DNA from: Natrinema gari JCM 14663
GTDB lineage: Archaea; Halobacteriota; Halobacteria; Halobacteriales; Natrialbaceae
Assembly: GCF_000337175.1 (NCBI RefSeq)
Contig: NZ_AOIJ01000086.1
Location: 30,882 to 94,881, forward strand
Direction of reading: 5' to 3'
Length of the DNA stretch: 64,000 nt
Part shown: positions 14,220 through 32,115 of the stretch, in pieces
Layout of the letters: each line of letters starts with the position of its first letter
Numbering within the stretch: the first letter of the stretch is position 1
Translations under genes and position numbers: made by a program
Notes under the pieces: generated by a model
The model's input: only the letters and a program-made list of their open reading frames with translations
Database searches by the model: none
Told to the model about the DNA's origin: nothing

Positions 14220-17200
14220 ATGAGTCAGGCGACGCTATCGGACCGCCCGTACACGAACTCGAATCTCTTCTCCGGCTATTATCTCGACGAGCGGATTCAG
14301 GACCGCGAGGAATGGGACTGCGACGACGCCGCACGGGCGGCCATGGACGACCTCCAGGAGCTATACGACCTCGAGTCGGGGCTGGTCGACGGCTACAAGG
14401 AAGACCCGCTGATCGACAACTGGATCGACGAGGTGCTCGAGGTGTTGGGGTTCGGGACGAACGTCGAGACGACGCTGCCCGAGGGCGGGGGCTACGTCGA
14501 CGTGTTGCTGTTCGAGACCACCGAGGCGCGCCGTGACGCGGCGGAGGTCTATCTGAGTTCCGAGGACACGACCGACCTGTTCGAGCGGGGTGTCGGACTG
14601 GTCGAGGCCAAGCAGTGGGACGCCGACTTCACGACCCGATTCAGCGACCAGCGGCCGTATCGGAACGCCTCCCATCAGATCAAACACTACCTCGAGCGGA
14701 CGCCCGAGCGGATTCAGTGGGGCGTGTTGACCAACGGCCGCAAATGGCGACTCTACGGGACGAACGACTACGAGACCCAGACCTACTACGAGATCGATCT
14801 GCCGGAACTGCTCGAGCGCGGCGATCTCGAGGCGTTCAAGTACTTCTATACGTTCTTCCGGCCGGCGGCGTTCCGCGAGTCGGGAGGAACGACGTTTCTC
14901 GATTCGGTCTGGTCGGAGAGCGAGACGGTCGCGCAGGAACTCGGCGAAGACCTACAGGACAACGTCTTCACAGCGCTGCGGGTGCTTGGCCGTGGCTTTG
15001 CCGAGACGAACGATCTGGCGATCGAGCCGGACGACGATGCGGGGCTCGGGGAACTCAAGGAGCAATCGCTCGTGTTGCTCTATCGGTTGATGTTCGTCCT
15101 CTACGCCGAGTCGCGGGGGTTGATCCACCCGGAGGGTGGGGACGCGGTCGCGGAGTACGAGGAGAACTTCAGCCTCGACGAACTGCGCCTCGAGATTCAC
15201 GAGGAGATCGGCGAGGTCGACGCCGGATTCGACGACGCCTACAGCGAGCACTCCACGACAATGTGGAGTCGGCTCGAGGACCTGTTTCGCCTGATCGACG
15301 AGGGCGAGGAGTCACTGGGGATTCCGCCGTACAACGGCGGGCTGTTCAATCGGGAGACCCACGATTTCCTGGCCGAGCACGAGGTTAGCAACCGTTATCT
15401 CGCGGAGGTCATCTATCGGATTTCGACGACGGAGAACGACGAGGGGCGATACGTGCTGGCCGACTATGCCGATCTCGATACGCGCCATCTGGGCAGCGTC
15501 TACGAGGGGCTGCTCGAGCACCAGTTCCGGATCGCGCCGGAGGCGTACGCGGCGGTGGCGGCGGACGGCGGGCAGGTCTGGAAGCCGGCCACGGAGGTGT
15601 CCGTCGCGGAGGCGGTCGAAACGGTCGACGAGGGCGGACTGTACGTCGTCAACGACGAGGGCGAGCGGAAGGCCACGGGGGCGTACTACACGCCGGACTA
15701 CGTGGTGACCTACATCGTCGAGGAGACGGTGGGGCCGCTGGTCGACGAGATCAAAGCCGATCTCGAGGCACAGGGCCTCGAGCCGGGCACCCACGAGTAT
15801 CTCGGGGCCTTCTATCGGCGGGTGACGGACCTGAAGATTCTCGATCCGGCGATGGGGAGCGGACACTTCCTGACGCGGGCGACGGAGTACCTCGCACAGC
15901 AGGTGATGGAGGAGGTGCGCGAGATCGAGGGGGCGACGGCCTTCGACGAGCAGCGGGTGCGTCGGGACGTGGCCAAGGAGTGTATTTACGGCGTCGATCT
16001 GAACGGGATGGCCGTCGAACTCGCGAAGCTGTCGATGTGGCTCGAGACGCTCGCTGCGGATCAGCCGCTGGCCTTCCTCGATCACCACCTCAAGGCGGGG
16101 AACTCGTTGGTGGGGTCGGACGTGACCGACGTGCTCTCGAGCGAGAGCGCCGACGGCGACGGGCAGTTGACCCTCCACCAGGCGCTGGCGCGGGTCCGGC
16201 AGGACACGCTGGAACACGTCATGGAGCGGATGCAGGAGTTGCTCGAGATCGACAACGAGTCGCTCGCGGACGTGAAGTCGATGGAGGAGATTTACGACGA
16301 AGTGCGGGCTGACCCGTTCTACCAGCGGTTGTTCGAGGTGGCGAACGTCCACACCGCGGAGCGGTTCGACCTGGACGTGCCAGAGGGGGCGTACGAGCGG
16401 ATGGCGGGGGCGATCGACGACGCGGACGAGTGGGCCGACGTTCGCGAGGAGCCGTGGTTCCAGACGGCGCAGGCGATGAGCGAGGACGAGGCGTTCTTCC
16501 ACTGGGAACTGGAGTATCCCGAGGTGTTCTTCGATGATGATGGGGAGAAGCGTCCTGACTCAGGGTTTGATGCTGTAATTGGAAATCCACCTTGGGTCAA
16601 TGCTTGGGAGATGACTGATTCGGAGAAGGGTGATCTGGTCAGAGAAGCGATCGAAGCCCTTCGAGAGGACAATGAAATCCTTAAAGGGCATTGGGACCTC
16701 TATGTTCCATTTATTCTCCTATCTTCGGAGATATTAAGGGATGATGGGTTCTTTTCGTTTATAATTCCAAATGCATTCTGCAGAGAGAAGTATGCTGAAG
16801 AAATCCGAGAAAGGTATTTATCTAAGTACCAATTGCGGAGTGTAACTCCATCTGGTGCTAAAAACGTATTTACTGGGGTTAGTCGACAAACCGTTATTCC
16901 TGTGTTCAAAAAATCGAAGCCAGATCTCGAAACAGACTCAGTAACCGTTGATGAAAATTTCATTCAACAATCTGTTCGAAGTTCTAATCTTAAAAAAGTC
17001 ACTCAACAGGTGTTCTATGACACGCCAGGGTGTCAAATTCGATACGGATCGGGACTTCGTGAATTAGAACTTTTGGAAGAGATAGAACGTAAAGCTATTC
17101 GAGTTGGGGATATTTGTTATGTTAACTATGGTGCACAGATATCTAGTAAGCAAAAAGGTGGGTTTGGGAAAGAGAAATTTTTGTCTGAAGACGATAATGA

Positions 17201-18425
17201 AAACACAGTCAAGTTCTTTGAAGGGAAAAATATCGAACGATATCAGATCTCATGGCCAGGATTACATCTAGATTATCGACCGAATGAAATCTATGGTCCA
17301 CGACATCCCCAATTATTCGAATCGGAGAAGATAGCAGTCCGGTATGTATCTGATGATGATGATTCGTTACTTGCCGCATATGACGATGAAGGAATGTATA
17401 CAGACCATTTAGTCGTTCTTTGTACTCATTACGAGAATATTTCTGGAACCGGTTTACAAGATGAGTTTGATGGATTCTCCCAATTAAATAAGCCATATTC
17501 ATTAAGGTCAATACTTGCAATAATCAATTCCAGTTTGACTAATTTCTACTATGCTAACAGATTCGCCACAGGTAGTCTTCAAGGTAACTACTCTCACGTT
17601 TATCCACGTTCTGTCCGTAGATTCCCAATTCCAGACATCTCATTTTCATCTAATAGTGAACAGCGGGAGAATATCGATAGTATTGAAGATAGTAGTGATG
17701 AGAACTATTTTGAAGAAGTTCAAAGTGTATTAAAATCAAATGAGATGGTTGACGGAGAACAAGCACACGACTGTTTAGAAGAGCTCTGTAAAATTATGAT
17801 TAGAACTAAGCAAGAAAGAGAGAGTCTTAATCTTGTTCTTCGAGATCATATTGGTCCCTATTCTGATGGTCCCTCTCTCTCTGACGTTGGCCTCACACAA
17901 CCTCCAGAAGAATTAGCTGACTCGATCCTCAGCGACACAACTGAAGACTGGGAAAATCTCCGCATCGGTACTGTTAGGGTTATTCGTGAGTCCGCTACTT
18001 CCATCGAAATTCGCCAGACAGCCCGTTACAAACCGGAAAACGAGGATAAACACGAGACCGACCGTTGGGGTTACACCGAAACCGAGCCCCTGCCGGCGCT
18101 GAAAATTTCGGATCTCACGGAAACCGAGGCCGACCTGATCGAGGCCTTCGTCCCCGTCGCCGTCGACGAGGCCGGCGGCTTCGCGAACTTCCGCGAGAAC
18201 GCCACCAAAACTAACTCCCCTGTCGATCGGCTCCGAAAGCTCACCCTGCCCGCCGTCGACGACGTTCGGGACGGCCTCGAGAGCTACCTTGAGACGAAAG
18301 CGCGAGCCGAGGAACTCGAGGCGAAGATCGAAAAGACGGACGAGTTGATCGATGAAATCGTCTACGAACTGTACGGGCTGACTGAGGAGGAAATCGAGAT
18401 CGTTGAGGAAACCGTTGAGAACTGA
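14220..18425 (+). CDS. Type IIG restriction-modification enzyme (fused nuclease and methyltransferase)
   Basis: This 1401-residue protein combines all functions of a restriction system. An N-terminal PD-(D/E)xK nuclease shows D94 in 'YVDVLLFE' and E129-x-K131 in 'VEAKQWD'. A helical spacer with 'GAYYTPDYVV' (near residue 489) leads to a gamma-class N6-adenine methyltransferase with motif I 'DPAMGSGHFL' (D542) and motif IV NPPW (789-792). The C-terminal part should be the target recognition domain, ending in a coiled coil. From about 16530 to 17990 the DNA turns AT-rich with different codon use, then returns to haloarchaeal composition, so the motif IV/specificity region appears transferred. 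There is no separate S, M or R gene nearby, as expected for a Type IIG/IIL enzyme. No frameshift is visible, so it is likely active. Confidence 0.92.
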   Translation: MSQATLSDRPYTNSNLFSGYYLDERIQDREEWDCDDAARAAMDDLQELYDLESGLVDGYKEDPLIDNWIDEVLEVLGFGTNVETTLPEGGGYVDVLLFETTEARRDAAEVYLSSEDTTDLFERGVGLVEAKQWDADFTTRFSDQRPYRNASHQIKHYLERTPERIQWGVLTNGRKWRLYGTNDYETQTYYEIDLPELLERGDLEAFKYFYTFFRPAAFRESGGTTFLDSVWSESETVAQELGEDLQDNVFTALRVLGRGFAETNDLAIEPDDDAGLGELKEQSLVLLYRLMFVLYAESRGLIHPEGGDAVAEYEENFSLDELRLEIHEEIGEVDAGFDDAYSEHSTTMWSRLEDLFRLIDEGEESLGIPPYNGGLFNRETHDFLAEHEVSNRYLAEVIYRISTTENDEGRYVLADYADLDTRHLGSVYEGLLEHQFRIAPEAYAAVAADGGQVWKPATEVSVAEAVETVDEGGLYVVNDEGERKATGAYYTPDYVVTYIVEETVGPLVDEIKADLEAQGLEPGTHEYLGAFYRRVTDLKILDPAMGSGHFLTRATEYLAQQVMEEVREIEGATAFDEQRVRRDVAKECIYGVDLNGMAVELAKLSMWLETLAADQPLAFLDHHLKAGNSLVGSDVTDVLSSESADGDGQLTLHQALARVRQDTLEHVMERMQELLEIDNESLADVKSMEEIYDEVRADPFYQRLFEVANVHTAERFDLDVPEGAYERMAGAIDDADEWADVREEPWFQTAQAMSEDEAFFHWELEYPEVFFDDDGEKRPDSGFDAVIGNPPWVNAWEMTDSEKGDLVREAIEALREDNEILKGHWDLYVPFILLSSEILRDDGFFSFIIPNAFCREKYAEEIRERYLSKYQLRSVTPSGAKNVFTGVSRQTVIPVFKKSKPDLETDSVTVDENFIQQSVRSSNLKKVTQQVFYDTPGCQIRYGSGLRELELLEEIERKAIRVGDICYVNYGAQISSKQKGGFGKEKFLSEDDNENTVKFFEGKNIERYQISWPGLHLDYRPNEIYGPRHPQLFESEKIAVRYVSDDDDSLLAAYDDEGMYTDHLVVLCTHYENISGTGLQDEFDGFSQLNKPYSLRSILAIINSSLTNFYYANRFATGSLQGNYSHVYPRSVRRFPIPDISFSSNSEQRENIDSIEDSSDENYFEEVQSVLKSNEMVDGEQAHDCLEELCKIMIRTKQERESLNLVLRDHIGPYSDGPSLSDVGLTQPPEELADSILSDTTEDWENLRIGTVRVIRESATSIEIRQTARYKPENEDKHETDRWGYTETEPLPALKISDLTETEADLIEAFVPVAVDEAGGFANFRENATKTNSPVDRLRKLTLPAVDDVRDGLESYLETKARAEELEAKIEKTDELIDEIVYELYGLTEEEIEIVEETVEN

Positions 18426-18754: not shown

Positions 18755-18908
18755 ATCACTCAGTAACATGTCTACTCGTATACTTGTTCTGGTAGGATAG
18801 AATAGCTAACACCATGCGAACATACTCCTGTCACAAACTGTGGCGATGCCCGCTAACTGGCCCATTAGTAAACAAAATATATGGTAGATGGGTTAAAATA
18901 CCCACATA

Positions 18909-19064
18909 ATGAATGATAATTCGATTATTTTACGCCTCAATCTGATTATCGCACTTTTGCTTAGCAAGCTTGTGCTGCTGCTTACCTTTATTTTCCCTCT
19001 AGAACTGTTTCTTATGGGAGGGACTTTGATTGTATTCCTCAGTCCTTACTGGCTGTGCTACTGA
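18909..19064 (+). CDS. 51-residue hydrophobic peptide
   Basis: An ATG at 18909 opens a 51-codon frame ending TGA at 19064. The peptide is almost entirely hydrophobic after a short polar start (MNDNS), with segments 'LNLIIALLLSKLVLLLTF' and 'LMGGTLIVFLSP' compatible with two membrane helices. The AT-rich sequence just upstream could hold a promoter. Small size limits certainty. Confidence 0.35.
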   Translation: MNDNSIILRLNLIIALLLSKLVLLLTFIFPLELFLMGGTLIVFLSPYWLCY

Positions 19065-19287
19065 TCCGATTTCTTCGATAAGTTCGCAGGTCTGCTGAAC
19101 AGTTGGTTCAACACTAAGCGCTTGGAAGAAACAAAGTCGATCTGTTACAACTATCCTCTCTATTCAGCACGCGACTGCTACCAGAATCCGGACAGGTGGG
19201 GCCCGAGCTTGCTGAATAGAGGGCCCGTATCGAGTGAGTCAGGACTGGTTGATTCGTTTTATTTGACTGGCCTTCGACCAAACCAGT

Positions 19288-19506
19288 ATGGTCATCTCAA
19301 CCGAGTCAGCGTGGGAACAGGTTGCTGAGGAGTTCGCCCGGGAGTATCAAGATGCAGTCGTCTACGGCGACCGCCAACAGGAGGTCGTTCTCCACGACGG
19401 TGCCCTCCGGTTATTGATGAACGGGTGGGTCGAACTCCCGTCAGGTCGTCTGCTTTCTCCTGATGCCGTCCACCACGTCGACCCCGTCCCGGAGCAAGAG
19501 CCATAG
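19288..19506 (+). CDS. Small hypothetical protein (72 residues)
   Basis: An acidic 72-residue protein ('AWEQVAEEFAREYQDAVVYG', 'VELPSGRLLSPDAVHHVD') with haloarchaeal codon use, in contrast to the AT-rich surroundings. It has no signal peptide and no metal motif. It is probably a real orphan gene in the accessory stretch; no function is recognised. Confidence 0.55.
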   Translation: MVISTESAWEQVAEEFAREYQDAVVYGDRQQEVVLHDGALRLLMNGWVELPSGRLLSPDAVHHVDPVPEQEP

Positions 19507-19871
19507 AACGTCATTGCCTGCTAGATACAACTTCTATATTCAGCACGTCCTCCTCAAACTATCAGTAGTTGAGGATTTCAACAGAGCCCAGTTCGTATAC
19601 CTTTGCTGTGACTACTCGGCAAGCGGTACGTATCGGTGATACAGATATCGTTGTATTACGAATTTTCGGTCTGCAATTGGGTGCGGGAAACAGAACTACG
19701 GTGCCGACGGCGCACATGCGAAAACTGCTAGGAGAAATGGGGATGTATCGATCTCTCTCAGAAATTGTCCGTTCGGATGTTCCATATTCAAACTTGAATC
19801 CCCTTGGTTGTTGGGGTACATTTTGCAGCATTGACATCTCTTTTTCCTCTGGGTGCAGAAGATATGAACGC
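19507..19871. other. Gene-poor spacer holding one IS6-like end
   Basis: About 365 nt without a supportable gene. The frame of the downstream gene is open through part of it, but its translation is low-complexity and lacks haloarchaeal character. The only structure recognised is the IS6-like end at 19571-19588. Confidence 0.5.
19571..19588 (-). repeat. IS6-family-like end sequence, copy 1
   Basis: Read on the minus strand it is GGCTCTGTTGAAATCCTC. This resembles terminal inverted repeats of IS6-family elements, which typically open GGCTCTGTTG or GGCACTGTTGCAAA. An identical 18-bp copy in the same orientation lies at 20569-20586. No transposase is between them. Confidence 0.5.
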
Positions 19872-20501
19872 ATGCAACAAATTAGTGAAGTCCACTTTAC
19901 GACTCACGGCAAGACCGACAACCGACAACTCATCGACCGATACATCTTAGACGCAGTCGAGAGACTCCCGCAGCAGGAGTTCTGCGATCACGCGGCGTTC
20001 ATGCCCTTGACACACGACGCAGTCGGTGGCGGCAACGTCTGGATCACGGTTGCAGGCGACATGGAAACTCTCGTCGACCACGAGTCCGACGACTGGGACT
20101 ACCTTGTCGAGGAAGGGCTCGTGTCGGAGTGGGACGTGACCGAGGTGACGGAGGACTGGTACGAAATTGCAGGGGAACAGGGTGGAGAGTTACTACTCCA
20201 ACTCCATCGCGTTGCGAATCAGGCGACTAAGGCCGCTTTCGAGGAATTCGAGACCCCACCAGCGCCAGTTGACACCTATCCAGAAGAGGATGCAAAACAC
20301 CCGGTCGGGTGGTGGATGGTGCTTGACACTATGTCGGGGCATCAAGAGTATACCTTCGAGGAAAGAGTGGAAGCGTTCTTGCACGGCATTCGGCACAAGT
20401 ATAAGGATATTTCTAAGTTGGAATCGCCTGAAAAGGCGGCCCAGCAAATCGATGAGTGCATTCAATCACTCGAAACGTTCCGAAACGAGATCCAAGACTG
20501 A
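19872..20501 (+). CDS. Hypothetical acidic protein between IS6-like ends
   Basis: A 209-residue soluble acidic protein from ATG 19872; the open frame continues upstream, but that part is not protein-like. It has 'ILDAVERLPQQEFCDHAAF', 'WDYLVEEGLVSEWDVTEV' and a C-terminal helical 'FEERVEAFLHGIRHKYKD'. It is flanked by two identical 18-bp IS6-like end sequences, which suggests arrival on a composite or degenerate element. The function is unknown. Confidence 0.6.
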   Translation: MQQISEVHFTTHGKTDNRQLIDRYILDAVERLPQQEFCDHAAFMPLTHDAVGGGNVWITVAGDMETLVDHESDDWDYLVEEGLVSEWDVTEVTEDWYEIAGEQGGELLLQLHRVANQATKAAFEEFETPPAPVDTYPEEDAKHPVGWWMVLDTMSGHQEYTFEERVEAFLHGIRHKYKDISKLESPEKAAQQIDECIQSLETFRNEIQD

Positions 20502-20909
20502 CGACATCATCGCGATAAATTCGCACGTGTAGTGTACAGTAGATTCACGAGCACAAGTCTCTAAAGAAGAGGATTTCAACAGAGCCACTTCAGCGAAGAC
20601 TCCGCTCCACTTGTTGTTGCCCTTTGAGAGAGCGCTTCTCACTGTTTACTCGTCTCGAGCAGCGTCCTTCTGAACGTCTTCGCTTTGACTAGGCCGGTCG
20701 TCTGAATCGTTGTTGTTGGATATAGTATAAAATTAGTAATTCGACATAGGTCTGTTGCGGTCAATCCGTCTCTCCGACAGTTGCTTCAAAATATATCCAC
20801 TCGAGGCCCCGATTACAGCCCGGTCGACCGACGTGTGATGTCGACGTGGTGGTGGTTCCGAAGGCCCCCGCCGATCGACCGGGTGACTGTCGGGGCTCGA
20901 GCGAGCCCC
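20502..20909. other. Gene-free region with IS6-like end
   Basis: Contains the second IS6-like end and no supportable gene. The segment near 20720-20745 is AT-rich. Confidence 0.5.
20569..20586 (-). repeat. IS6-family-like end sequence, copy 2
   Basis: Identical over 18 bp to 19571-19588 and in the same orientation. Direct rather than inverted arrangement means the pair cannot be the two ends of one intact element; they are more likely remnants of separate insertions or solo ends after deletion. Confidence 0.5.
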
Positions 20910-21377: not shown

Positions 21378-21542
21378 TCACGGCCCGTGGCGCGACTCGA
21401 GGCCCGCCCTGCGGACGCGGCTGTGCGCCTCGGGGTTGATTTGGACGGGGTTCAGTCTCCGCTCAATAGAACGGATCTCGCCCTCTGTGAGAGTGTCCGG
21501 AACCGTCCTGTCTATGGTTCCGTCGAACGGTGAAGCAGTCAT
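21378..21542 (-). CDS. 54-residue hypothetical protein
   Basis: A short frame from ATG 21542 to TGA 21378. The translation has a credible helical segment ('TLTEGEIRSIERRLNPVQ') and a basic C-terminal end. No homolog is recognised; it could be the truncated front of a longer protein, since similar composition continues past the stop. Confidence 0.3.
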   Translation of the reverse strand: MTASPFDGTIDRTVPDTLTEGEIRSIERRLNPVQINPEAHSRVRRAGLESRHGP

Positions 21543-21747
21543 CGAATCGACTGTCAAATATTATTTCAGGTTCTAGTGGTAGCCACTGAAATACTGCACC
21601 CGGTTTCGTCTACCGATCCAATGAGGCCTCAGCACCTCTGTCTGCAAATAATATGGATTGTATTGTTGTACTAGAGGTTTCATGTAAGTAGTTGTAAGAT
21701 AAATACTCGTACCTGTCCCTAATTTTTACATTCAACAGGTTAGTAAA

Positions 21748-21755
21748 TTATATAT
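21748..21755 (+). promoter_or_regulatory. TATA box of the halocin-like gene
   Basis: TTATATAT lies 24-31 nt before the GTG at 21779, in an AT-rich leader. This is typical archaeal promoter spacing for a leaderless mRNA and supports the GTG as the start; an ATG four bases upstream runs into a stop codon after eight codons. Confidence 0.6.
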
Positions 21756-21778
21756 TGTTTCAGTTGAATGTCTAATGT

Positions 21779-23797
21779 GTGGCACCCAACAATACCAATA
21801 GCGATCCGACTAGGCGAAAAGTCCTTCAACGTACTGCAGCCGCAGGCACGGCGGTTATTGGCTCCTCAATCAGTGCAAGTGCGTCCTCGAACAGTCTTAA
21901 CGATATCAATGAACGGGGATCACCCGAATTAGATACCGGTAACGGTGATCGGACTGTCACGATCCGCTCGAATGAGACAGCGTCGTATACCTTCCAAGTG
22001 ACAGGAACGATAACGCCGACAGGGGCACCAAATAGGGCACTTGATCACGGCACAGCGTCGGTCACGCTGTCAAATGACACCCACGAATACACGTTCGCCG
22101 GTGAGTTCACTGAGTTTGAGGTCGAAGGAGAGGCAGCTGTCTTTGTCGACGGTGACCCCTTCGACGTTGAGGCATTCCCTCAAACCACCCTGTCAATTGT
22201 TCCTCAGGAACCGATAGAGGTGGATGTGTCTGCGAGCGGGAGACTCGAGACTGAATCCAACTCCCTCGACAAGCCGAATAAGCGAACCGTTCAAGGAACG
22301 ATTCGCAACCGAACGGTTCTCTCTTATGCTGGCGAACTCACACACTTCGATATCAACGGCCGTGCGGAAGTGCAGAAAAACGGCCACTCGGTCGATCCAT
22401 CCGAAGTTCTTCCATCGTCGCTCCCGGGCGAAGTATCTCTCACCGGTCCTGACATCGATGTGACCGTCGGTGTTTCGGGTGAAGCCGCTTCTGACCACCC
22501 CTCTGTTCATTCCAGCGACGGGAACATTACTGCGCCTGCGACCGGCTCCGGGACGACTGCTAGGTACGACGGCCGTGTCGAATCCATCGAACTCGAGAAC
22601 GGTGCCTCGGCGGAGATCGTCCCTGAGTCGAAGCGTGTGGTCTGTACGGCACCTGAAGAGCAGGCGATTACGTTCTCGACGCAGTCAACGGAAGCGTTCA
22701 TTTACAACGAGGAAGTCCACAAGAACCCAGAGGTCACGGTTGCTGCCGGGGAAACAGAACGAATACAGTACTTCGGTGATGTAACTACTGTTTCCATCAA
22801 CCAAGTTGAGGTGTCATTCGACTACGAACGCTACGAGGATGCGAAGTCGTCAGCACGCCTCCAGATGGCCGCGGAGTTCGAACGACAGGACGCTTATAAT
22901 CGCCTCCGTGCTGAGGTAGCAGGGCGGGTCCGCCACGACGCCGCTGGTATCTACGCTATCTCGGCAGACGCTGAGCCCCGTCCTGTTGATGCCGTGGTGT
23001 TCAAACTGACTGATGTTCACCACGGAAATGAGGGTTCAATGAGCATCACGAAACACCGAAACTCTGGGTCCATAGTCGCCGGGAAGAATACCTACCACTG
23101 GCGAACAGACGATGGTCTCCTCGAAAAGATGCAACTTGACACGCTTGAAGTTGGGTCGGCGACAACCATGTCGTCCGCGGGGCTTGCCACCGAAACGTTC
23201 GATTTCGACGTTCCACAAGGAGTGTCAACCCAGCAAGTGGAAACGCCGGATTTGGCTTCGAACGTTCAATGGAGTGACTGGATTGGAGACATCTACGATG
23301 AGCTGAAAGATGTCGCTTCCGGGATTGCCGGCGTCAGTGCCGATTATCTGGCCAGGGCGATCGAGTACGCCGAGATAACCGCCACAGAAATTGCGGTCAC
23401 CAGTGGGAAAATCCTGTGTAACACGCTTAACTCGTTCCAAGAACTGGCAACGAAGTTCATCGACGACGCTAACCTCAAAGCGTTTTGGAAAGTCCGTATT
23501 ACGGGTTATTCGTCGATGATTTCACTTATTGGGAGTGGAGTATTCGAAGCTATTGGTAATGAGAACTACGACTGTGGGGCTTGTGTCGCATTTATACGGT
23601 TATCGCTGGATGTTGGGCTTTGTGGAGGCGGGGTGAGCGCATTCTGCTCGGCCTTCTCATTAACGACACTCGGTCTCGGGACGGTTCCGTGCGTGGCTTT
23701 GGGTGAGGCGATCTGTTCGTATACCATCATGGCTCTCCCTGATGCAAAGGATATCTGTAGTGGCCATACAGAACCGGATGAAGCAGCCTTCTGTTAG
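21779..23797 (+). CDS. Tat-exported 672-residue precursor with C-terminal halocin C8-like domain
   Basis: The N-terminus has a twin-arginine signal (R12-R13-K-V-L) and an alanine-rich h-region, so the folded protein is exported. About 500 residues of beta-rich, Ser/Thr-rich repeats ('ASYTFQVTGTITPTG', 'SYAGELTHFDINGRAEV', 'TARYDGRVESIELENGASA') follow, then a helical linker. The last ~75 residues are hydrophobic and cysteine-rich: C599, C602, C615, C623, C638, C646, C660 and C672, the last being the final residue. The CxxC opening, the C-x7-C-x14-C-x7-C core and the terminal Cys closely follow halocin C8, an archaeal peptide antibiotic also released from a Tat-exported precursor whose N-terminal part gives immunity. 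The N-terminal part here is far larger. The gene is isolated in a low-GC accessory stretch. Halocin-like identity of the tail is strong by pattern; antibiotic activity is inference. Confidence 0.8.
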   Translation: MAPNNTNSDPTRRKVLQRTAAAGTAVIGSSISASASSNSLNDINERGSPELDTGNGDRTVTIRSNETASYTFQVTGTITPTGAPNRALDHGTASVTLSNDTHEYTFAGEFTEFEVEGEAAVFVDGDPFDVEAFPQTTLSIVPQEPIEVDVSASGRLETESNSLDKPNKRTVQGTIRNRTVLSYAGELTHFDINGRAEVQKNGHSVDPSEVLPSSLPGEVSLTGPDIDVTVGVSGEAASDHPSVHSSDGNITAPATGSGTTARYDGRVESIELENGASAEIVPESKRVVCTAPEEQAITFSTQSTEAFIYNEEVHKNPEVTVAAGETERIQYFGDVTTVSINQVEVSFDYERYEDAKSSARLQMAAEFERQDAYNRLRAEVAGRVRHDAAGIYAISADAEPRPVDAVVFKLTDVHHGNEGSMSITKHRNSGSIVAGKNTYHWRTDDGLLEKMQLDTLEVGSATTMSSAGLATETFDFDVPQGVSTQQVETPDLASNVQWSDWIGDIYDELKDVASGIAGVSADYLARAIEYAEITATEIAVTSGKILCNTLNSFQELATKFIDDANLKAFWKVRITGYSSMISLIGSGVFEAIGNENYDCGACVAFIRLSLDVGLCGGGVSAFCSAFSLTTLGLGTVPCVALGEAICSYTIMALPDAKDICSGHTEPDEAAFC

Positions 23798-23907
23798 CCG
23801 GTAGCTCGTCCAGCATCGGCTACTCTGCAGATATTTCGGCAATTGAATAAATGTGTTTCGTATAATGGCAAGTAAGTTTATTATAACTATGTCGCGGATA
23901 TGAGTCC

Positions 23908-25092
23908 ATGGGAAGTGACTCCCTCCGCCGTCGGCTGCCGGCCGTCCTGGCGATCGGAGCCACACTCAGTCCGGCCATCGGAATCGGCTGGTTCGGCTGG
24001 GACTTGCTCCCGCTCCTGGTCGTCTACTGGCTCGAGGCGGTCGTCTACGTCACCCGCTGTTCGCTCGAGTCGCTGTTTGCCGGTCGCCCCGTCGACGACG
24101 ACTACTACGGGCTCTTCCTCCCTCTCGAACGCCTCCGCGAGAAACGTGGGAGCGTGCGCGTTGTCGAGTGGCTCCCGCCGGTCTTCCCGCGAAACGTGCC
24201 GTTCGCGCTCAACGGCGGGTGGCTGCTCTTCGCGCTCGGGACGCTCGGGGCTCTTACCATGCTCTTCGCTCGTCCCCCGGGCACCCTCGAGCGAGGGACG
24301 TTGGTCGGCATCGGCGGCGCGACCGTGCTCGTCGTGGGCAGGCACGCGGCCACGCTCCTCGAGTCGATCCGCTCCGACCGGTACAAAACATGGACGGCAC
24401 TGTCGCCGTTCGCCCGTCGGCGCAGGCTTGCCGTCGGTATCGTCGCCGTTCTCGTCCCGATCGTGGGTCTCGGGGCCACCCGGACCGAGCTTGGGCTCAC
24501 GGCGACGGTCGGCCTGCTTCTCGCGACGAAACTCTGGTACGATCTCCTCGACCTCCGCACGCCCGACGACCAGCCGACCGACCCCCAGCGGGACGAGACC
24601 GCGATCGACGTGCCCGAGACTGCGCCACTCGCCGTCGGCCACACCGACGGACGCGGGATCGCCCTCGACGCGCTCGTCCTCGGCGCGATGCTGGCGCTGC
24701 TCCCGCCGGTCGGGTTCGTGATCCTGTTCTCGAGTGTCGCGGTTGGTCTCTGGGTCGGCCTTCCCGCGGGTGTCGCGACGGTCGTGCTCCTCGTCGCCGC
24801 CCGCGCGGCGTTGGAACTCCCGATCGCGTCTCTCAGGGTCGGTGCCGTGGAGTACCGCGTGTACGATGCCGCCGTGATTGCGTACGATACGAGGCTCGAC
24901 GCGCCGCAGTGGCGGCTGCCCCGATGCGAGATTACGGACGTCCGGACGGACACTGCGTTCATGAGCCCCCTCCTGTCCGGGGCCGTCGGCACCGTCCGGA
25001 TCGACTGTGCGGATGGCTCGTCGCGCTCGCTCTCACTGGTCCGGAACCCGGAGGCGGTCGGTCGGGCCCTCGCTGTCGGAGCGACCGCCTGA
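23908..25092 (+). CDS. Multi-pass membrane protein with C-terminal soluble domain (DUF6498-like)
   Basis: A 394-residue protein. Hydrophobic segments lie near residues 9-28, 27-47, 105-122, 128-147, 170-188, 195-212 and 255-300. The last ~80 residues form a soluble beta-rich domain ('AVEYRVYDAAVIAYDTRLD', 'ALSSG'-free acidic loops), reminiscent of bacterial PH-like domains. 'LLVVYWLEAVVYV' near the start fits the DUF6498 family known in haloarchaea. It is monocistronic. No transport or catalytic motif is seen. Confidence 0.7.
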   Translation: MGSDSLRRRLPAVLAIGATLSPAIGIGWFGWDLLPLLVVYWLEAVVYVTRCSLESLFAGRPVDDDYYGLFLPLERLREKRGSVRVVEWLPPVFPRNVPFALNGGWLLFALGTLGALTMLFARPPGTLERGTLVGIGGATVLVVGRHAATLLESIRSDRYKTWTALSPFARRRRLAVGIVAVLVPIVGLGATRTELGLTATVGLLLATKLWYDLLDLRTPDDQPTDPQRDETAIDVPETAPLAVGHTDGRGIALDALVLGAMLALLPPVGFVILFSSVAVGLWVGLPAGVATVVLLVAARAALELPIASLRVGAVEYRVYDAAVIAYDTRLDAPQWRLPRCEITDVRTDTAFMSPLLSGAVGTVRIDCADGSSRSLSLVRNPEAVGRALAVGATA

Positions 25093-25388
25093 ATCGATGC
25101 CGACCGGTTGTCGCCGCGCGCGGACCAAGCCTTAAGCACGTCACATCAGGAGCCACTCGAGACCTGGCGTCGCGAGCACCGCGGTCCCGTCGGCAGGTCG
25201 TCCCTCCCTCGGCCCGCCGATCGACTCGCGCCGCCGAACCCGCCGACGGCTCCCCGATCGACCCCGTTCGACGCGACGGTCGTTCGTTATCGAAAATGGG
25301 GAATGTCGGCGGCACGGACGCAATGGCCGCTGAAACGCGGGTCATGGTTGGCCCCAACGTATATCCCTGTGGTCCCGAGAGTCGAGCC

Positions 25389-27614
25389 ATGAGCATTCGA
25401 GACGACCCCCGGCGCGGGCGTGTCTCGATGGACCCGATTCGCGTCCTCCACGTCGATGCCGACCCGGCGTGGACGACTGCGGTCGCCGACTGCCTCGAGC
25501 GAGCGGCCGTCCCCATCGAGACGCTCAGTGTGGACAGCGCCAGCGACGCGCTCGAGCGGCTCGAGCACGCCGACATCGACTGTCTCGTCTCGGAGTACGA
25601 CCTGCCCGACACGGACGGGCTGTCGTTGTTCGATGCCGTCCGAGCGACCCACGACGCGCTGCCGTTCGTCCTGTGTCCCAGAGCGGGCTCGGAGGCCGTC
25701 GCGAGCGAGGCGATCGGTGCCGGGGTGACGGACTACGTCCCGAAAGGCGAGGGGGCCGCGACGCTTCGGGACCGCCTCGTCGAGGCCGTCAGCACGATCC
25801 GCGACCGCTCACGCCGCGAGCGCCAACTCTGTGCCGTCGAAACCGCACGGGAGGGCATCAGCCTGCTCGACGCTGAGGGGCGGTTTATCTACGTGAACCA
25901 GGCCTACGCCGACCTCTACGGCTACGAGCCGTCGACCCTGATCGGCGAACACTGGGAACGGCTCTACCCCGACGAGGACGTCGAGACCGTCCGCGAAGAG
26001 ATTATTCCGACGGTGCTGTCCGAGGGCGACTGGTTCGGCGAAACGACCGGCCTCCGGGCCGACGGCACCACCTTCGTCGAGGCCCACTCGCTGTCGATGA
26101 CCGGCAACGGCGATCTCATCTGTACGGTCCGGGACGTGACCGACCGCGAGGAACGCAAGCGCAACCTCGAGCGCTACGAGACGATCATCGACGCGCTGGG
26201 CGATCCGGTTTACACGGTCGATTCGGAAGGGCGGTACGCGTTCGTCAACGACGCCTACGCCGCGATGACGGGGTACGAGAAGGACGACATCGTCGGCCGC
26301 CACATCTCGTTTCTCCTCGACGAGCCGTCCGTAGCGCGCGGCGAGGACTGCGTCCGGTCGCTGCTCTCCGACGACACCGACGCCCGCCAGCGGACCTACG
26401 AGATCACCGTCGAAACGAGCGACGGCGAGCGGATTCGCTGTGAGGACAACGTCTCGCTGTTGCCCCTGGCGGACGGCCGCTACCGGGGCGTCGCCGGCGT
26501 CGTTCGCGACATCACCGAGCGCAAGGCCCGCGAACGCGAACTCGAGCGCTACGAGACGATCCTCGAGACGCTGCCGGACGAGGTGTACTCGCTGGACGCC
26601 GCGGGTGTCATTACCGAGATCATCCCCCCGATCAACGACGACGTGTCGACGACGGGCCACCGACCCGAGGAACTGGTCGGCGAGCACGTCTCGGTCATCA
26701 TGGACGCGGACGATATCGACACCGCCGAGTCGGAAATCCGGGCGCTGTTGCACGATGACGACCGCGAGCATGCGTCGTTCGAAATGGAGACGATCGCGAA
26801 AGACGGCGAGCGCCACCCCAACGAGAATCACATCGCGGCCCTGCCGCCGGACGAGGACGGCCGCTTCCGGGGCACCGTCGGCGTCCTGCGCAACATCGCC
26901 GACCGGAAAGCCCGCGAGCGCGAACTCAAAGCGCAGAACGAACGCCTCGACCGGTTCGCCGGCATCGTCTCCCACGACCTCCGGAACCCGCTGAACGTCG
27001 CGCAGGGCCACCTCGAGCGGGTCCGCGAGGCCGGCGACTGCGACGACGGCGATCTCGAAGCCATCGCGTGGGCCCACGATCGGATGGCGGTCCTGATCGA
27101 GAACCTCCTGACGATCGCACGCGAGCGCGATCCCGACCCGGACACCGAACCGGTCGATCTCGCGGCACTCACCGCGGACTGCTGGCGACACGTCGAAACG
27201 GACGACGCCACCGTCGCGATCGAAACGGACGCCGTCGTTCGGGCCGACCGCGCCCGCCTCGCCCAACTCCTCGAGAACCTCGTCAGCAACGCCGTCGAGC
27301 ACGGCTCGACGGACGCCGCCGACCACGACACCGCCGCGATCACGCTCACCGTCGGCGACCTCGACGGGGCGGCCGACGGGTTCTTCGTCGCCGACGACGG
27401 CCCCGGCATCCCGGCCGCCGAGCGCGACAAGATATTCGAAAGCGGCTACTCGAGCGACGGAGCCGGGACCGGACTCGGGCTCGCGATCGTCGAGCGGATC
27501 GCCGACGCCCACGGCTGGACGGTGACGGTTACCGAGGGCGACGACGGCGGGGCGCGGTTCGAACTGACCGGCGTCGAGCTGGTCGACCGGCCGGGACCCG
27601 GCGACGAGGAGTAA
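25389..27614 (+). CDS. Histidine kinase with degenerate receiver and three PAS domains
   Basis: A 741-residue cytoplasmic sensor kinase from ATG 25389 (ATG 25428 is also credible, as 'MDPIRVLHVDADP' starts the receiver). Order: receiver (~15-135), PAS 1 (~145-255), PAS 2 (~265-380), PAS 3 (~390-500), HisKA with phospho-acceptor H529 in 'GIVSHDLRNPLN', and an HATPase domain with N box 'LENLVSNAVEHG' and G boxes 'DDGPGIP' and 'GTGLGLAIVE'. The receiver has Glu (E69, in 'VSEYDLP') where the phosphorylated Asp should be, and an Ala in the acidic pair, while the lysine of 'YVPKG' is kept. It should therefore not accept phosphate normally. No transmembrane segment or cognate regulator is adjacent. 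Confidence 0.93.
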   Translation: MSIRDDPRRGRVSMDPIRVLHVDADPAWTTAVADCLERAAVPIETLSVDSASDALERLEHADIDCLVSEYDLPDTDGLSLFDAVRATHDALPFVLCPRAGSEAVASEAIGAGVTDYVPKGEGAATLRDRLVEAVSTIRDRSRRERQLCAVETAREGISLLDAEGRFIYVNQAYADLYGYEPSTLIGEHWERLYPDEDVETVREEIIPTVLSEGDWFGETTGLRADGTTFVEAHSLSMTGNGDLICTVRDVTDREERKRNLERYETIIDALGDPVYTVDSEGRYAFVNDAYAAMTGYEKDDIVGRHISFLLDEPSVARGEDCVRSLLSDDTDARQRTYEITVETSDGERIRCEDNVSLLPLADGRYRGVAGVVRDITERKARERELERYETILETLPDEVYSLDAAGVITEIIPPINDDVSTTGHRPEELVGEHVSVIMDADDIDTAESEIRALLHDDDREHASFEMETIAKDGERHPNENHIAALPPDEDGRFRGTVGVLRNIADRKARERELKAQNERLDRFAGIVSHDLRNPLNVAQGHLERVREAGDCDDGDLEAIAWAHDRMAVLIENLLTIARERDPDPDTEPVDLAALTADCWRHVETDDATVAIETDAVVRADRARLAQLLENLVSNAVEHGSTDAADHDTAAITLTVGDLDGAADGFFVADDGPGIPAAERDKIFESGYSSDGAGTGLGLAIVERIADAHGWTVTVTEGDDGGARFELTGVELVDRPGPGDEE

Positions 27615-27646
27615 TCCTTTTGCGGGACCCCTACACACGTCCGGGT

Positions 27647-27973
27647 ATGAGCAGCAACTGGCCGGTCGATCCCGACGGCGAGGAGGGCAGCGAGGGGATG
27701 CGCAAGTTCGACATGCGGATCATCGCGGACAAAGTCGACGAGGAGGAGGACTTCCCGATGGACCGCGACGAGTTCGTCGCGGAGTACGGCGACTACCCGA
27801 TCCGGATCAACTACGAGACGGTCGTCCCGATGAGCGATATCTTCGAGTACGTCGAACCCGCGGAGTTCGAGACGCTGCTCGACATGCACAAGGCCGTCGG
27901 CGCTGCCATGCGTGCGGGTGACTTCTGGACGTACCACCCGAAGGGCAGCGACCCCGAGAAGAAACACGCCTGA
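27647..27973 (+). CDS. DUF5785-type haloarchaeal protein
   Basis: A 108-residue acidic soluble protein ('WPVDPDGEEGSEGMRKFDM', 'MDRDEFVAEYGDYPIRINYE') with no cysteines or membrane segment, matching the haloarchaeal DUF5785 family. It starts 33 nt after the kinase gene. The function is unknown. Confidence 0.8.
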   Translation: MSSNWPVDPDGEEGSEGMRKFDMRIIADKVDEEEDFPMDRDEFVAEYGDYPIRINYETVVPMSDIFEYVEPAEFETLLDMHKAVGAAMRAGDFWTYHPKGSDPEKKHA

Positions 27974-28037
27974 GCGCTCCATCACGAATCTGGATTACGT
28001 ATCGCTTATACGACGCCGTTCGAAATGAACGTCCACA

Positions 28038-28808
28038 GTGACTAACACGCAGGTAACGCTCGTTCAGATCGACAACTACGGACCCTGGACCGTGACGCCG
28101 GAACCGCGTCGGGAGGCCGACCTCCAGACCATGCAATCCCGGCTGTTCGCCGAAATCTCGCAGTTCGTCGGCAACCGCGGCGGCTACGCCTTCTTCACGC
28201 GCTTCGACAACATGATCGCGGTGACGAACGGCTGCTCGCTCGAGGACCACGCGCTGTTACAGGAGTCGATCGGCAACCGGTATCCCGTCACGCTCAGTCT
28301 CGGCGTCGCGACGGGGACCAGCCCCGTCCAGGCGCTGGCCGACGCCACGGCCCGCCTGCAGGACGCCGGCAGCGCACAGGACGAGACCCGCCGCGAGTGT
28401 CTCGAAGGGCGAGGCATCGAAGACGGCTACCGGGCCGACGACGACGTCCAGATCGCCCACTTCGACGTGGTCAACGCGACCGGCAACTACACGGACGAAC
28501 TCAACGCCTTCGACACCTTCATCGAGATCGAGCAGGGGTACGCCGAACTCATGCGCCACATGCGCTACACCCACGACAGTCTCTCCTTTTTCGTCGGCGG
28601 CGACAACGTCATCGTCGTCTGTCCCGATCTCGAGGCCGCCGACTACGAGGAGGCCACTGCCCACGTCGAGGACGCCGTCGATGTCGAGATGCAGGTCGGC
28701 GTCGGTCGCGGGGCGAGCGCCCACGAGGCCGGCTTCGCGGCGAAACACGCCCTCGAGACCTGTCGGGCCGACGGCACTCGTGTCGAACTCGAGTGGGAGA
28801 TGGCCTGA
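28038..28808 (+). CDS. arfA: GTP cyclohydrolase III (archaeal, ArfA type)
   Basis: The 256-residue protein matches archaeal GTP cyclohydrolase IIa/III throughout: 'VTLVQIDNYGPWTVTPEPRR' opening, 'GGYAFFTRFDNMIAVTNG', 'NRYPVTLSLGVATGTSP' and a duplicated half with 'LSFFVGGDNVIVVCPD'. The enzyme opens GTP to 2-amino-5-formylamino-6-ribosylaminopyrimidinone 5'-phosphate, the first step to archaeal riboflavin and F420. The start is GTG 28038 (M T N T Q), which gives the family N-terminus. A creatininase-family enzyme that may do the next step lies about 20 kb away at 48828. Confidence 0.95.
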   Translation: MTNTQVTLVQIDNYGPWTVTPEPRREADLQTMQSRLFAEISQFVGNRGGYAFFTRFDNMIAVTNGCSLEDHALLQESIGNRYPVTLSLGVATGTSPVQALADATARLQDAGSAQDETRRECLEGRGIEDGYRADDDVQIAHFDVVNATGNYTDELNAFDTFIEIEQGYAELMRHMRYTHDSLSFFVGGDNVIVVCPDLEAADYEEATAHVEDAVDVEMQVGVGRGASAHEAGFAAKHALETCRADGTRVELEWEMA

Positions 28809-28893
28809 AAACGGTGAATTAGGGAACTTCGCTGCCGGCTTGCTTAAGTGTGACGGGAGTAGCTTTTAGCCCGTTCGTGGGCATCGTTCAGCT

Positions 28894-29502
28894 ATGGAAT
28901 CGGAACTGTCCGTCAGGGATGTCCTGACGTCCGACTACGTCGGCGTCAGCGAGTCCGACACCGTTCGTGAGGTCGTTCGACTCATGCGCGAGGAACGGAC
29001 GAGTTGTGCGCTCGTCGTCCGGGGCGCGGAGCCGGTCGGCATCGTGACCGAGTGGGACGTGCTCGGACTCGTCGCCGACGACCGCGATCCGTCGACGACG
29101 ACCGTCGGCGACGCGATGACGACGCCGGTCATCACGGTCGGTCCCGATCGATCGCTCACCGACGTTGCGACCACGATGGCCCGCCAGAACATCCGCAACG
29201 TCGTCGTCGAAGCCGCCGACGGCATCGTCGGTCTGGTCACCCAGCGCGACGTCATCGCCGCCGCTGGCTCGTTCCAGGCGACGATGACGCCCTCCCGCTC
29301 GAGCGAGCCGCCGGTCGATCGCGACCGCGACGCCGCCGACCCCGCAGCGGCCCGGACGACCGAAGGGGACGATACCCAACTGCTCCCCAACGGTGGCGAC
29401 GAGTACACCACGCAGGGCATCTGCGAGGCCTGCGGCTCGCTCGCCGACGCACTCTGGGATGCCAACGGCCAACTCGTCTGTACGGACTGTCGGACGGTGT
29501 GA
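28894..29502 (+). CDS. CBS-domain pair with C-terminal zinc ribbon
   Basis: A 202-residue protein with two CBS motifs (about residues 7-60 and 70-125; 'VRDVLTSDYVGVSESDTVRE' and 'VGDAMTTPVITVGPDRSLTD'), which usually bind adenine nucleotides. An acidic linker leads to a zinc knuckle of CxxC pairs ('CEACGSLADAL', 'VCTDCRTV'). This arrangement is common in haloarchaea and suggests an energy-sensing regulator. It is monocistronic. Confidence 0.9.
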   Translation: MESELSVRDVLTSDYVGVSESDTVREVVRLMREERTSCALVVRGAEPVGIVTEWDVLGLVADDRDPSTTTVGDAMTTPVITVGPDRSLTDVATTMARQNIRNVVVEAADGIVGLVTQRDVIAAAGSFQATMTPSRSSEPPVDRDRDAADPAAARTTEGDDTQLLPNGGDEYTTQGICEACGSLADALWDANGQLVCTDCRTV

Positions 29503-29603
29503 TCGGCCGTCGGTCCCGTCTCGGCAGGCGTCGTGTCAGCGGCTCCCGATCCGTATCTCTCCGATAGAAAGACCTTTCGGGTGTCGCGGTGGACAGGTCG
29601 ATA

Positions 29604-30827
29604 ATGATCGCGACCCTCGACGACCTGGACGTCGAAGGGACTACCGTCGGTGTTCGCGTCGACGTCAATAGTCCGATCGACGACGATGACACGCTCGCGG
29701 ACGATGCCCGACTGCGCGCACACGTCGATACCCTGTCGGAACTGCTCGAACGCGGCGGTCAGGTCGCCGTCCTCGCCCATCAAGGTCGGCCCGGCGGCGA
29801 CGACTTCGTCTCGCTTGCCTCCCACGCCGACCGCCTCTCGACACTGCTCGACCAGCCCGTCGACTACGTCGATGCGACCTTCTCCGAGGCCGCCCGCGAG
29901 GCCGTCAGGGACCTCTCGAACGGCGGGTGCGTCGTCCTCGAGAACACGCGCTTCTACAGCGAGGAGTACATGGAGTTCGACCCCGAACGAGCCGCCCGAA
30001 CCCACCTCGTCGAGGGGCTCGAGCCCGTCCTTGACGCCTACGTCAACGACGCCTTCGCCGCGGCCCACCGCTCACAGCCCTCCCTCGTCGGGCTCCCGTC
30101 CGTCCTCCCCAGCTACGCCGGCCGCGTGATGGAATCCGAACTCGACGTGTTGGGCTCGATCGAGGAGACCGACACCCCCCGCGTCTACGTCCTCGGCGGC
30201 GCGAAGGTCTCCGACTCGATCGACGTCGCCTGGTCCGTCCTCGAGAAGGGGCTGGCCGATCACGTCCTCACCGCGGGCGTCGTCGGCAACGTCTTTCTCA
30301 TCGCCGACGGCGTCGATCTCGGCGACGCCAGTTCCGATTTCATCTACGACCAGGGCTACTGGGACGAGATCGATCGCGCCGCCGATCTGCTCGACGCGTA
30401 CGGCGACCGGATCGCACTCCCGCGGGACGTCGCCGTCGCCCGGGACGACGACCGCCACGAACTCGGCGTCAACGCCTTGCCCCCCGGCGACGGCGAGGCT
30501 GCAATGGACATCGGCAACTCGACGCTTGACTACTACCGGCGGATACTCTCGGATGCGGAGACCGTCATCCTCAACGGCCCCGCCGGCGTCTTCGAGGACG
30601 AGCGCTTCCAGACGGGCACCCAGGAACTCTACGGTGTCGCGACCGATATCCCGACGAGCATCGTCGGCGGCGGCGATACGGCCGCTGCCCTGCGAACGCT
30701 CGGTGTCGAGGGCTTTTCCCACGTCAGTACCGGCGGCGGTGCTGCGTTGCGGATGCTCACCGCCGAATCGCTTCCCGCCGTGACGGCACTCGAGAATGCA
30801 CCCCAACGACCCGCAGCCGACGATTGA
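29604..30827 (+). CDS. pgk: Phosphoglycerate kinase
   Basis: A 407-residue glycolytic/gluconeogenic enzyme catalysing 1,3-bisphosphoglycerate + ADP to 3-phosphoglycerate + ATP. Family marks are 'GVRVDVNSPI', 'VLAHQGRPGG', 'LENTRFYSEE', 'DAYVNDAFAAAHRSQPS', 'LGGAKVSDSI', 'NGPAGVFEDERF' and the C-terminal 'GGGDTAAAL..STGGGAAL' nucleotide loops. ATG 29604 is chosen over a TTG-type start five codons upstream. Its last 32 nt overlap the start of the GNAT gene in another frame. Confidence 0.96.
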   Translation: MIATLDDLDVEGTTVGVRVDVNSPIDDDDTLADDARLRAHVDTLSELLERGGQVAVLAHQGRPGGDDFVSLASHADRLSTLLDQPVDYVDATFSEAAREAVRDLSNGGCVVLENTRFYSEEYMEFDPERAARTHLVEGLEPVLDAYVNDAFAAAHRSQPSLVGLPSVLPSYAGRVMESELDVLGSIEETDTPRVYVLGGAKVSDSIDVAWSVLEKGLADHVLTAGVVGNVFLIADGVDLGDASSDFIYDQGYWDEIDRAADLLDAYGDRIALPRDVAVARDDDRHELGVNALPPGDGEAAMDIGNSTLDYYRRILSDAETVILNGPAGVFEDERFQTGTQELYGVATDIPTSIVGGGDTAAALRTLGVEGFSHVSTGGGAALRMLTAESLPAVTALENAPQRPAADD

Positions 30828-31311
30828 GCTCGCGTCTCGCGACGACATCGCCCCCCTCACGGACCGCTGGGTCCGCCTCGCGCGCGATCAGCGCCAGTAC
30901 GGGTCGGCGATCCGCGCCGACGCGAACCGCGAGCCCATGCGGGAGACGCTCGGGGCCTATCAGGTCAGCGACGGCCTGTTCGTCGCCCGTCTCGAGGGCT
31001 CAATCGTCGGATTCGCCACGGTCTCGGTCGAACGCGGCTCCCTCGAACTCGACGAGACCCGAGGCATGCTGTCGAATATCTACGTCGACCCCCCCTATCG
31101 GGATCGCGGCATCGGCACGGCGCTGCTCGAGGCCGCCGAGGCGTCGCTGGCCGACCGCGGCGTCGACACGATGCTGCTCGAGGTGATGGCAGCCAACGAG
31201 TCCGCCCGGCGGTTTTACCGTCACAAGGGGTACGACGCACGCCGGGTGACCATGAGCCGGTCGCTCGAGAACCGGGCGGAAAACGATACACATTCAAAGG
31301 AGGACGGCTAA
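30796..31311 (+). CDS. GNAT N-acetyltransferase
   Basis: The 171-residue product has the GNAT core: 'GFATVSVERGSLEL', 'GMLSNIYVDPPYRDRGIGTA' with the acetyl-CoA-binding R-x2-G-x-G loop, and 'NESARRFYRHKGYDARRV'. It starts 32 nt inside pgk, so translation is probably coupled, an unusual partner for a glycolytic gene. The substrate is unknown; small molecule or protein N-acetylation are both possible. tRNA-Thr begins 12 nt after its stop. Confidence 0.92.
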   Translation: MHPNDPQPTIELASRDDIAPLTDRWVRLARDQRQYGSAIRADANREPMRETLGAYQVSDGLFVARLEGSIVGFATVSVERGSLELDETRGMLSNIYVDPPYRDRGIGTALLEAAEASLADRGVDTMLLEVMAANESARRFYRHKGYDARRVTMSRSLENRAENDTHSKEDG

Positions 31312-31323
31312 CCAACGGCCTGC

Positions 31324-31397
31324 GCCAGGGGAGCATGGGCGGTTCATGCACTCGACTTGTAATCGAGACTTCGTGGGTTCAAATCCCACCCCTGGCT
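31324..31397 (+). tRNA. trnT-UGU: tRNA-Thr(UGU)
   Basis: A 74-nt tRNA. The acceptor GCCAGGG pairs with CCCTGGC, the D stem is GCAT/ATGC, the anticodon stem CTCGA/TCGAG holds loop CTTGTAA with anticodon TGT (reads ACA, threonine), and the T arm is GTGGG-TTCAAAT-CCCAC. The discriminator is T. CCA is not encoded. Confidence 0.97.
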
Positions 31398-31770
31398 TGA
31401 ATCCTTAGGTTCAAAGCTTCTACCTGCAGGTATCTGCAACTCCCAACGTTCTGGAGAGAGCAGTAATTCAGCATGAGCACCGCGGCCGATGGGTCCGGCC
31501 CTTCTGCGGAGCACTCGGCGAGACCGAGGACGGCGAGTCCGTCATCGCCCAGTCGAAACACGGTGAGCGAACGGTCTGTGCCAGCTGGACCGCGGATGAC
31601 GAGGGGAGTTGCGTTGTCCGACGACACGTCACAGGTTTGGGAACGCAACTGATTCACCGAACCGAATCCCTCTCGGAGCCGATCCTGACAGCCCGTCTCC
31701 CCGGCCGTAGCTGAGCGAGGAAGCGCCGGTAGCTGCAAAAAGGAGTGAATGCCCCGGGTTCGTGGCCGAA
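31398..31770. other. Gene-free region after tRNA-Thr
   Basis: About 370 nt. A plus-strand frame near 31490-31710 has some protein-like stretches but no start codon and no recognisable family, so it may be a decayed gene. Nothing else is seen. Confidence 0.4.
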
Positions 31771-32115
31771 TTAGACCTTCTCAACCCCGTGTTCAGACTC
31801 CCAGCCGGCTCCCTTGCCGAAATCGAGTTCGACGAACTGCTCGCCCGACGACTCGTAGATGCTGAGCACTTCCGTTTCCCACCCACGGCACGCGTGGGGC
31901 CCGGTCCGACTCCAGTCTCCGTTCGGCGGATCCTCCATCAGCTGATAGCAGTCGTCACAGTCACTACAGGGACTGTACTTGACCGTATCGCCGACGGAGA
32001 GATGGGTCGCCGAAGCGCTTCCGGCTGCCATCGCGACGCCACCGACGCTGGCGAGTCCGATACCGGTTTTTCGAAGGACGCTACGTCGATCAATACCTGA
32101 ACCATTACCTGACAT
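31771..32115 (-). CDS. Small Tat-exported protein
   Basis: A 114-residue protein with a twin-arginine signal ('IDRRSVLRKTGIGLA', R10-R11), an alanine-rich core and an ASA-T cleavage region. The mature ~75 residues hold four cysteines, three of them in 'YSPCSDCDDCYQL', and read 'VGDTVKYSPC...VLSIYESSGEQFVELDFG', reminiscent of a small SH3-like beta barrel. It is secreted and its role is unknown. The upstream region (32116-32250) is AT-rich and contains its promoter. Confidence 0.75.
   Translation of the reverse strand: MSGNGSGIDRRSVLRKTGIGLASVGGVAMAAGSASATHLSVGDTVKYSPCSDCDDCYQLMEDPPNGDWSRTGPHACRGWETEVLSIYESSGEQFVELDFGKGAGWESEHGVEKV

Follow-up and report, generated by a model that had tools for sequence, protein, structure and literature searches.

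A divergent long halocin C8-like precursor with beta-repeats and a DUF6498 neighbour in Natrinema gari JCM 14663

To our knowledge, few halocins are known at the gene level, and HalI is the only halocin immunity factor that has been described. The 283-aa precursor ProC8 is exported by the Tat pathway and matures into HalI and the 76-aa peptide HalC8 (PMC11509114), under which sensitive rods are reported to round up and lyse (PMC6759562). For halocin H4, cleavage by halolysin frees the active C-terminal part (PMC12893001). In the enterocin DD14 system, export depends on the PH-domain membrane proteins DdE and DdF; when either is lost, the enterocin is not exported and its accumulation is harmful to the producing cell (PMC8657885). 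We analysed a stretch of 64,000 nucleotides of contig NZ_AOIJ01000086.1 of Natrinema gari JCM 14663 (the window, to whose first letter all positions refer), which contains the gene of a long halocin C8-like precursor.

Kinship of the precursor with halocin C8

The precursor gene lies at 21779..23797 on the plus strand; it begins with GTG and codes for 672 residues, as supported by full-length homologues and their alignment (A1). Haloarchaeal promoters follow a rule of spacing between TATA box and start, behind our reading of the TATA-box-like TTATATAT (21748..21755, plus strand), whose centre is about 27 nt before the GTG; this spacing would fit a leaderless transcript of the precursor gene. 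The open reading frame begins with a twin-arginine motif (RRKVL), and positions 5-41 of the long-family profile align the predicted Tat signal region (residues 1-37; 21779..21889, plus strand) with that of the canonical HalC8 precursor; the match to TIGR01409 is weak. The Tat export proposed in an earlier note on this DNA is thus supported by the motif and by a colinear Tat block. At the usual threshold, a search of the precursor for transmembrane anchors gave none.

Ten other long homologues were found among 391 haloarchaeal genomes and one further in Halorussus ruber, so that the long set comprises 12 proteins including that of the window; alignment A1 contains 11 of them, without Halorussus ruber. 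Where complete, they have about 670-710 residues, compared with about 270-320 in canonical precursors, and the reading frame of one (G361) is broken near the N-terminus. A single-sequence scan of genome contigs gave no relatives and an alignment-based scan gave six named ones, with carriers in Halomicrobium katesii, Haloferax larsenii, Halorussus amylolyticus and Natrinema salsiterrestre. One contig of Haloferax larsenii JCM 13917 encodes two halocin C8-like precursors, one long and one short (L095/L154, L103), and the unassigned 13-14 kDa halocins HA1, HA3 and HA4 come from other strains of this species (PMC11509114).

The Tat signal is followed by a PF22862 domain, an arrangement expected of the halocin C8 family. 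PF22862 (Hac8_like_N) matched residues 359-451 in hmmscan (E 2.2e-5, 25.4 bits), and when the genomes were searched it scored 29.3 bits, above its cut-off of 27. The HalI-like immunity domain that we assign to residues 353-456 (22835..23146, plus strand) opens with a helix-loop-helix, with helices at 353-368 and 371-378 in the predicted structure. With the profile of the 12 long proteins, a canonical HalC8 precursor of 283 aa was recovered at E 1.7e-16; the match consists of three colinear blocks, namely the Tat region, the HalI domain and the C-terminal peptide.

The C-terminal peptide spans residues 599-672 (23573..23794, plus strand) and is hydrophobic, 66% of its residues being A, V, I, L, M, F, W, C or G. 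The eight cysteines noted earlier are indeed present at residues 599, 602, 615, 623, 638, 646, 660 and 672, against ten in canonical HalC8, the missing ones being HalC8 cysteines 3 and 8. The claimed halocin C8-like order and spacing is borne out by the gaps, which are 2,12,7,14,7,13,11 in the window and 2,11,7,13,7,17,5 in canonical HalC8 with cysteines 3 and 8 omitted, and six of the cysteines are invariant across the 11 homologues of A1. Two further cysteines are found at residues 289 and 547. The lone C289 (~22643-22645) belongs to the beta part, which would be exported, and all 11 proteins of A1 share it although it has no evident partner; the long precursor of Halorussus ruber is without a corresponding cysteine.

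The halocin C8 domain that a profile search had been expected to reveal in the peptide was recovered in part: in addition to the PF22862 match, TIGR04449 (halocin_C8_dom) aligned residues 599-661 with model positions 1-64 of 69, but at 9.5 bits, under its curated cut-off of 24 bits, which the full-length homologue G182 (Actinarchaeum) exceeds at 24.1 bits. For this reason the protein is filed as a divergent long variant and not as a TIGR04449 member. Against a profile of canonical precursors only, its last 88 residues scored 12.6 bits, a value reached by 2 of 5000 composition shuffles and by 18 of 2000 shuffles with the cysteines fixed in place, and HHalign of the long against the canonical precursors assigned probabilities of 96.5% (C-terminal part) and 98.7% (whole protein). 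Taken alone, the peptide score is above chance yet modest, and it is the sequence evidence from the family that makes the kinship with halocin C8 firm. Given the shared blocks, the profile matches and the sub-cut-off peptide, we therefore place the window protein, on sequence grounds, in the halocin C8 family as a long and divergent form that falls outside the curated peptide-domain definition. The kinship with halocin C8 precursors put forward in the earlier note is supported in both the immunity-domain part and the peptide part; its suggestion of a new class of archaeal antimicrobial is too strong for a long variant of a known family.

Comparison of 40 peptide domains, from long and short forms in related rows, revealed no domain with only one of HalC8 cysteines 3 and 8, and cysteines 4 and 7 are coupled in the same way (r=1.00 each); since the rows are related, these values represent few independent loss events. 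Cysteines 3 and 8 are absent from the long forms, and cysteines 4 and 7, which correspond to C615 and C646 of the window protein, are additionally absent in G126, G361, G307 and a few short forms. Because the members of each pair are lost together, this comparison predicts the bonds C3-C8 and C4-C7, the latter as C615-C646 in the window protein, and the halocin C8 fold gains a specific, testable disulfide prediction. Metal binding by the cysteines is not favoured, as pairwise co-loss and Tat export would fit disulfides better. The peptide part of the predicted structure is unreliable (pLDDT ~36-62), and neither sequence relatives nor a solved structure for the halocin C8 fold were found in the PDB.

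Beta-repeats and helical segment

The earlier note described about 500 residues of beta-rich repeats. A beta part with repeats does lie between the signal and the HalI-like domain, but in the predicted structure it covers about 300 residues (56-350). After it come the HalI-like domain, with an alpha/beta structure (353-456), and then a helical segment (500-597). Two copies of a ~90-aa repeat, at residues 56-140 and 134-216 (21944..22426, plus strand), are supported by the predicted structure and by a profile built exclusively on the repeats of further exported, enzyme-like haloarchaeal proteins (E 4.6e-18 and 6.1e-11). One or two degenerate copies, not significant in the window protein, follow up to about residue 350, and some homologues have a third copy (best E 2.9e-5). 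The other carriers are Tat-exported and combine the repeat with subtilase and GH26 domains or with a right-handed beta-helix. On such proteins of many haloarchaea (L178-L195) it occurs in up to seven copies, and no Pfam family was found for it. Since the repeats are common to exported enzyme-like proteins, their distribution suggests a polymer- or surface-binding role.

The helical segment ahead of the peptide (23276..23569, plus strand) is placed by a model of moderate to low confidence and by a gap in the profile comparison, and canonical precursors lack an equivalent. When the precursor model was compared with known folds, nothing matched clearly (no Foldseek E < 0.001; VIA Z <= 5.5). This should not be read as a sign of a new fold, and in its peptide part the model was too uncertain.

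The DUF6498 gene and the accessory setting

Directly downstream, on the same strand, lies the gene of a 394-aa DUF6498 membrane protein (23908..25092, plus strand). Of the 12 long loci, 11 keep this arrangement, the two genes being 53-174 nt apart (in the window, 110 nt). PF20108 (DUF6498) matched the window protein at 36.8 bits (cut-off 23.7) and 27 of its 28 aligned relatives. In the model a helical, probably polytopic membrane part is followed by a C-terminal domain of seven strands and a helix, which may be PH-like: Foldseek gave PH/PTB domains with probability 1.00 and rmsd ~2.5-3.7 A over ~80 residues, but at E 0.04-0.3; weak bPH_2 matches were obtained in 4 of the 28 relatives (best E 0.0047). 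No DUF6498 gene was found beside short or truncated precursors in 21 loci, apart from one sub-threshold match (E 0.067), and none in the genome of Halorussus ruber, which has a long precursor. Just downstream of the latter, on the opposite strand, an 86-aa protein with two hydrophobic stretches is encoded (L155, 8118-8378).

The trees of the precursor and of DUF6498 have one topology, grouping members of different families; as it does not follow the families, this points to transfer or inheritance of the two genes as a pair. Matches to DUF6498 occur in 224 of the 391 genomes, widely without a precursor, and the tree rejects the partner proteins as one clade, close kin without a precursor being present. 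Beside 20 of the closest DUF6498 genes that lack a long precursor, a search for another precursor gave none that matched that of the window. DUF6498 might be an unrelated resident gene upstream of which the precursor merely tends to insert, a reading that agrees with the scattered partners and precursor-free kin, with the lack of DUF6498 in Halorussus ruber and with the GC content of the window gene (~70%, host-like, unlike the precursor). We consider it unlikely, given that order, strand and spacing shared by 11 of 12 loci are hard to obtain by repeated chance insertion and that the common tree topology does not follow family labels.

The GC profile and the annotation agree with the earlier description of a low-GC accessory stretch beside a restriction gene: GC content is 50-57% at 18-24 kb and mostly 60-70% around it. 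The syntenic locus of genome G034 (L158) is 93.7% identical in DNA over 23925 to 31417 and keeps DUF6498, the protein being 91% identical. In place of window positions 21436..23924 (~2.5 kb) it has about 90 nt, and the precursor is absent (blastn). From this presence/absence polymorphism we conclude that the precursor with its flanking spacer is gained or lost independently at this locus. The two genomes also differ at 16595-17844 and 18796-20799, which indicates that the whole 16-24 kb stretch is variable. A large single-gene Eco57I/MmeI-like restriction-methylase is encoded at 14220-18425; its start is 92% identical to that of G034, and its low-GC middle (16595-17844) is unaligned, as if the specificity part had been swapped. 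No relatives were found in viral contigs or PLSDB plasmids, and thus there is no sign there of phage or plasmid carriage; a search for DNA repeats around the precursor gene gave nothing beyond the ordinary. Further along, at 31771-32115 on the minus strand, the window encodes a protein of 114 aa, in which we noted a Tat-like signal and the motif CSDCDDC.

Short precursors were also observed in the survey. The same genome contains a HalC8-type gene (G000:C52:23253-23798; L101, ~9753-10298, minus strand) whose 10-Cys peptide is intact but whose precursor is shortened at the 5' end to a 194-residue open frame with no Tat signal seen. In several other loci (L110, L114-L121) the short precursor is often followed by a same-strand protein of 61-127 aa with two to four hydrophobic helices. 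Such neighbours accompany 9 of 20 short precursors (6 of 14 without near-copies) against 5 of 282 other genes, and they are possible small immunity proteins.

Proposed mode of action and comparison with known systems

On balance we lean, by a small degree, towards a surface- or glycan-directed long-form halocin precursor, to which DUF6498 would be a further partner in immunity or processing. We infer the following course for export, targeting, cleavage and killing, and for the part of DUF6498. The precursor would be exported folded via the Tat pathway, the beta-repeats would tether it to a layer of polysaccharide or of the cell surface, or target it there, and the HalI-like domain would mask the C-terminal peptide as long as the two are joined. 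Outside the cell, a protease of the halolysin type would free the hydrophobic, disulfide-locked peptide of ~75 residues, or alternatively a longer piece including the helical segment, and the freed peptide would damage the membrane of related haloarchaea. The export and release steps are proposed by analogy with ProC8 (PMC11509114) and with halocin H4 activation (PMC12893001). DUF6498, with its putative PH-like domain, may add self-protection in the producer membrane to that given by the HalI-like domain, or may have a role in processing or release; relatives that lack the precursor could keep it. A broader proposal, which we hold only tentatively, is that the locus represents a second halocin architecture, in which a disulfide peptide, directed to glycans or surfaces and set free by a protease, has DUF6498 as its own PH-domain membrane immunity protein. 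The two genes would form a module that is passed between genera and of which non-producers also keep DUF6498 as protection.

The precursor could instead be a surface- or matrix-binding protein of halocin ancestry without antimicrobial action, its tail serving as a membrane anchor or assembly part. The large binding-type N-terminus and a peptide with eight rather than ten cysteines, under the curated cut-off, would suit such a protein, but the HalI-like domain and the peptide are retained together in 12 divergent proteins, six cysteines do not vary in 11 of these, and the gene is patchy and accessory, as bacteriocins are; we give this explanation a low probability. Still less probable is a contact-acting toxin that is not released, whose repeats, typical of exported and probably polymer-bound proteins, would hold it on the producer surface or matrix as its hydrophobic, disulfide-rich end inserts into neighbouring cells, since the homologous ProC8 is cut into a free peptide (PMC11509114) and the precursor has no transmembrane anchor at the usual threshold.

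DUF6498, a family of otherwise unknown function, gains a candidate immunity or processing role, and the long subfamily is a concrete candidate antimicrobial in named strains. In a literature search with little coverage of subscription papers, 'halocin C8-like' gave only one paper, on silver stress, and no mention of DUF6498 was found. In our view the most useful parts of this analysis are the link with DUF6498 and the predicted disulfides.

Among known systems, DdE and DdF are membrane proteins encoded alongside a bacteriocin, as DUF6498 is alongside a candidate one, and they carry PH-type domains, as DUF6498 may do; they are bacterial, however, their bacteriocin is leaderless and DUF6498 has its own polytopic N-terminus, so that the likeness is one of analogy and not of kinship. 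Halocin H4 and HFX_0892 likewise have exported precursors thought to require an extracellular protease (PMC12893001), but HFX_0892 yields an N-terminal peptide and the window precursor would yield a C-terminal one. The subtilase-GH26 and beta-helix proteins have the homologous ~90-residue repeat in common with the window precursor, which carries an immunity domain and a peptide in place of their enzyme-type domains. The window precursor shares with ProC8 a Tat signal, a HalI-type domain and a C-terminal cysteine-rich hydrophobic peptide in the same order, as well as the CxxC start, the C-x7-C-x13/14-C-x7-C core and the terminal cysteine of HalC8. It differs from ProC8 in its length (672 against ~283 residues), in the inserted beta-repeats and helical segment and in a peptide with 8 of the 10 cysteines that scores below the curated cut-off, and from the short precursors in having DUF6498 downstream, where these have other genes or small membrane proteins.
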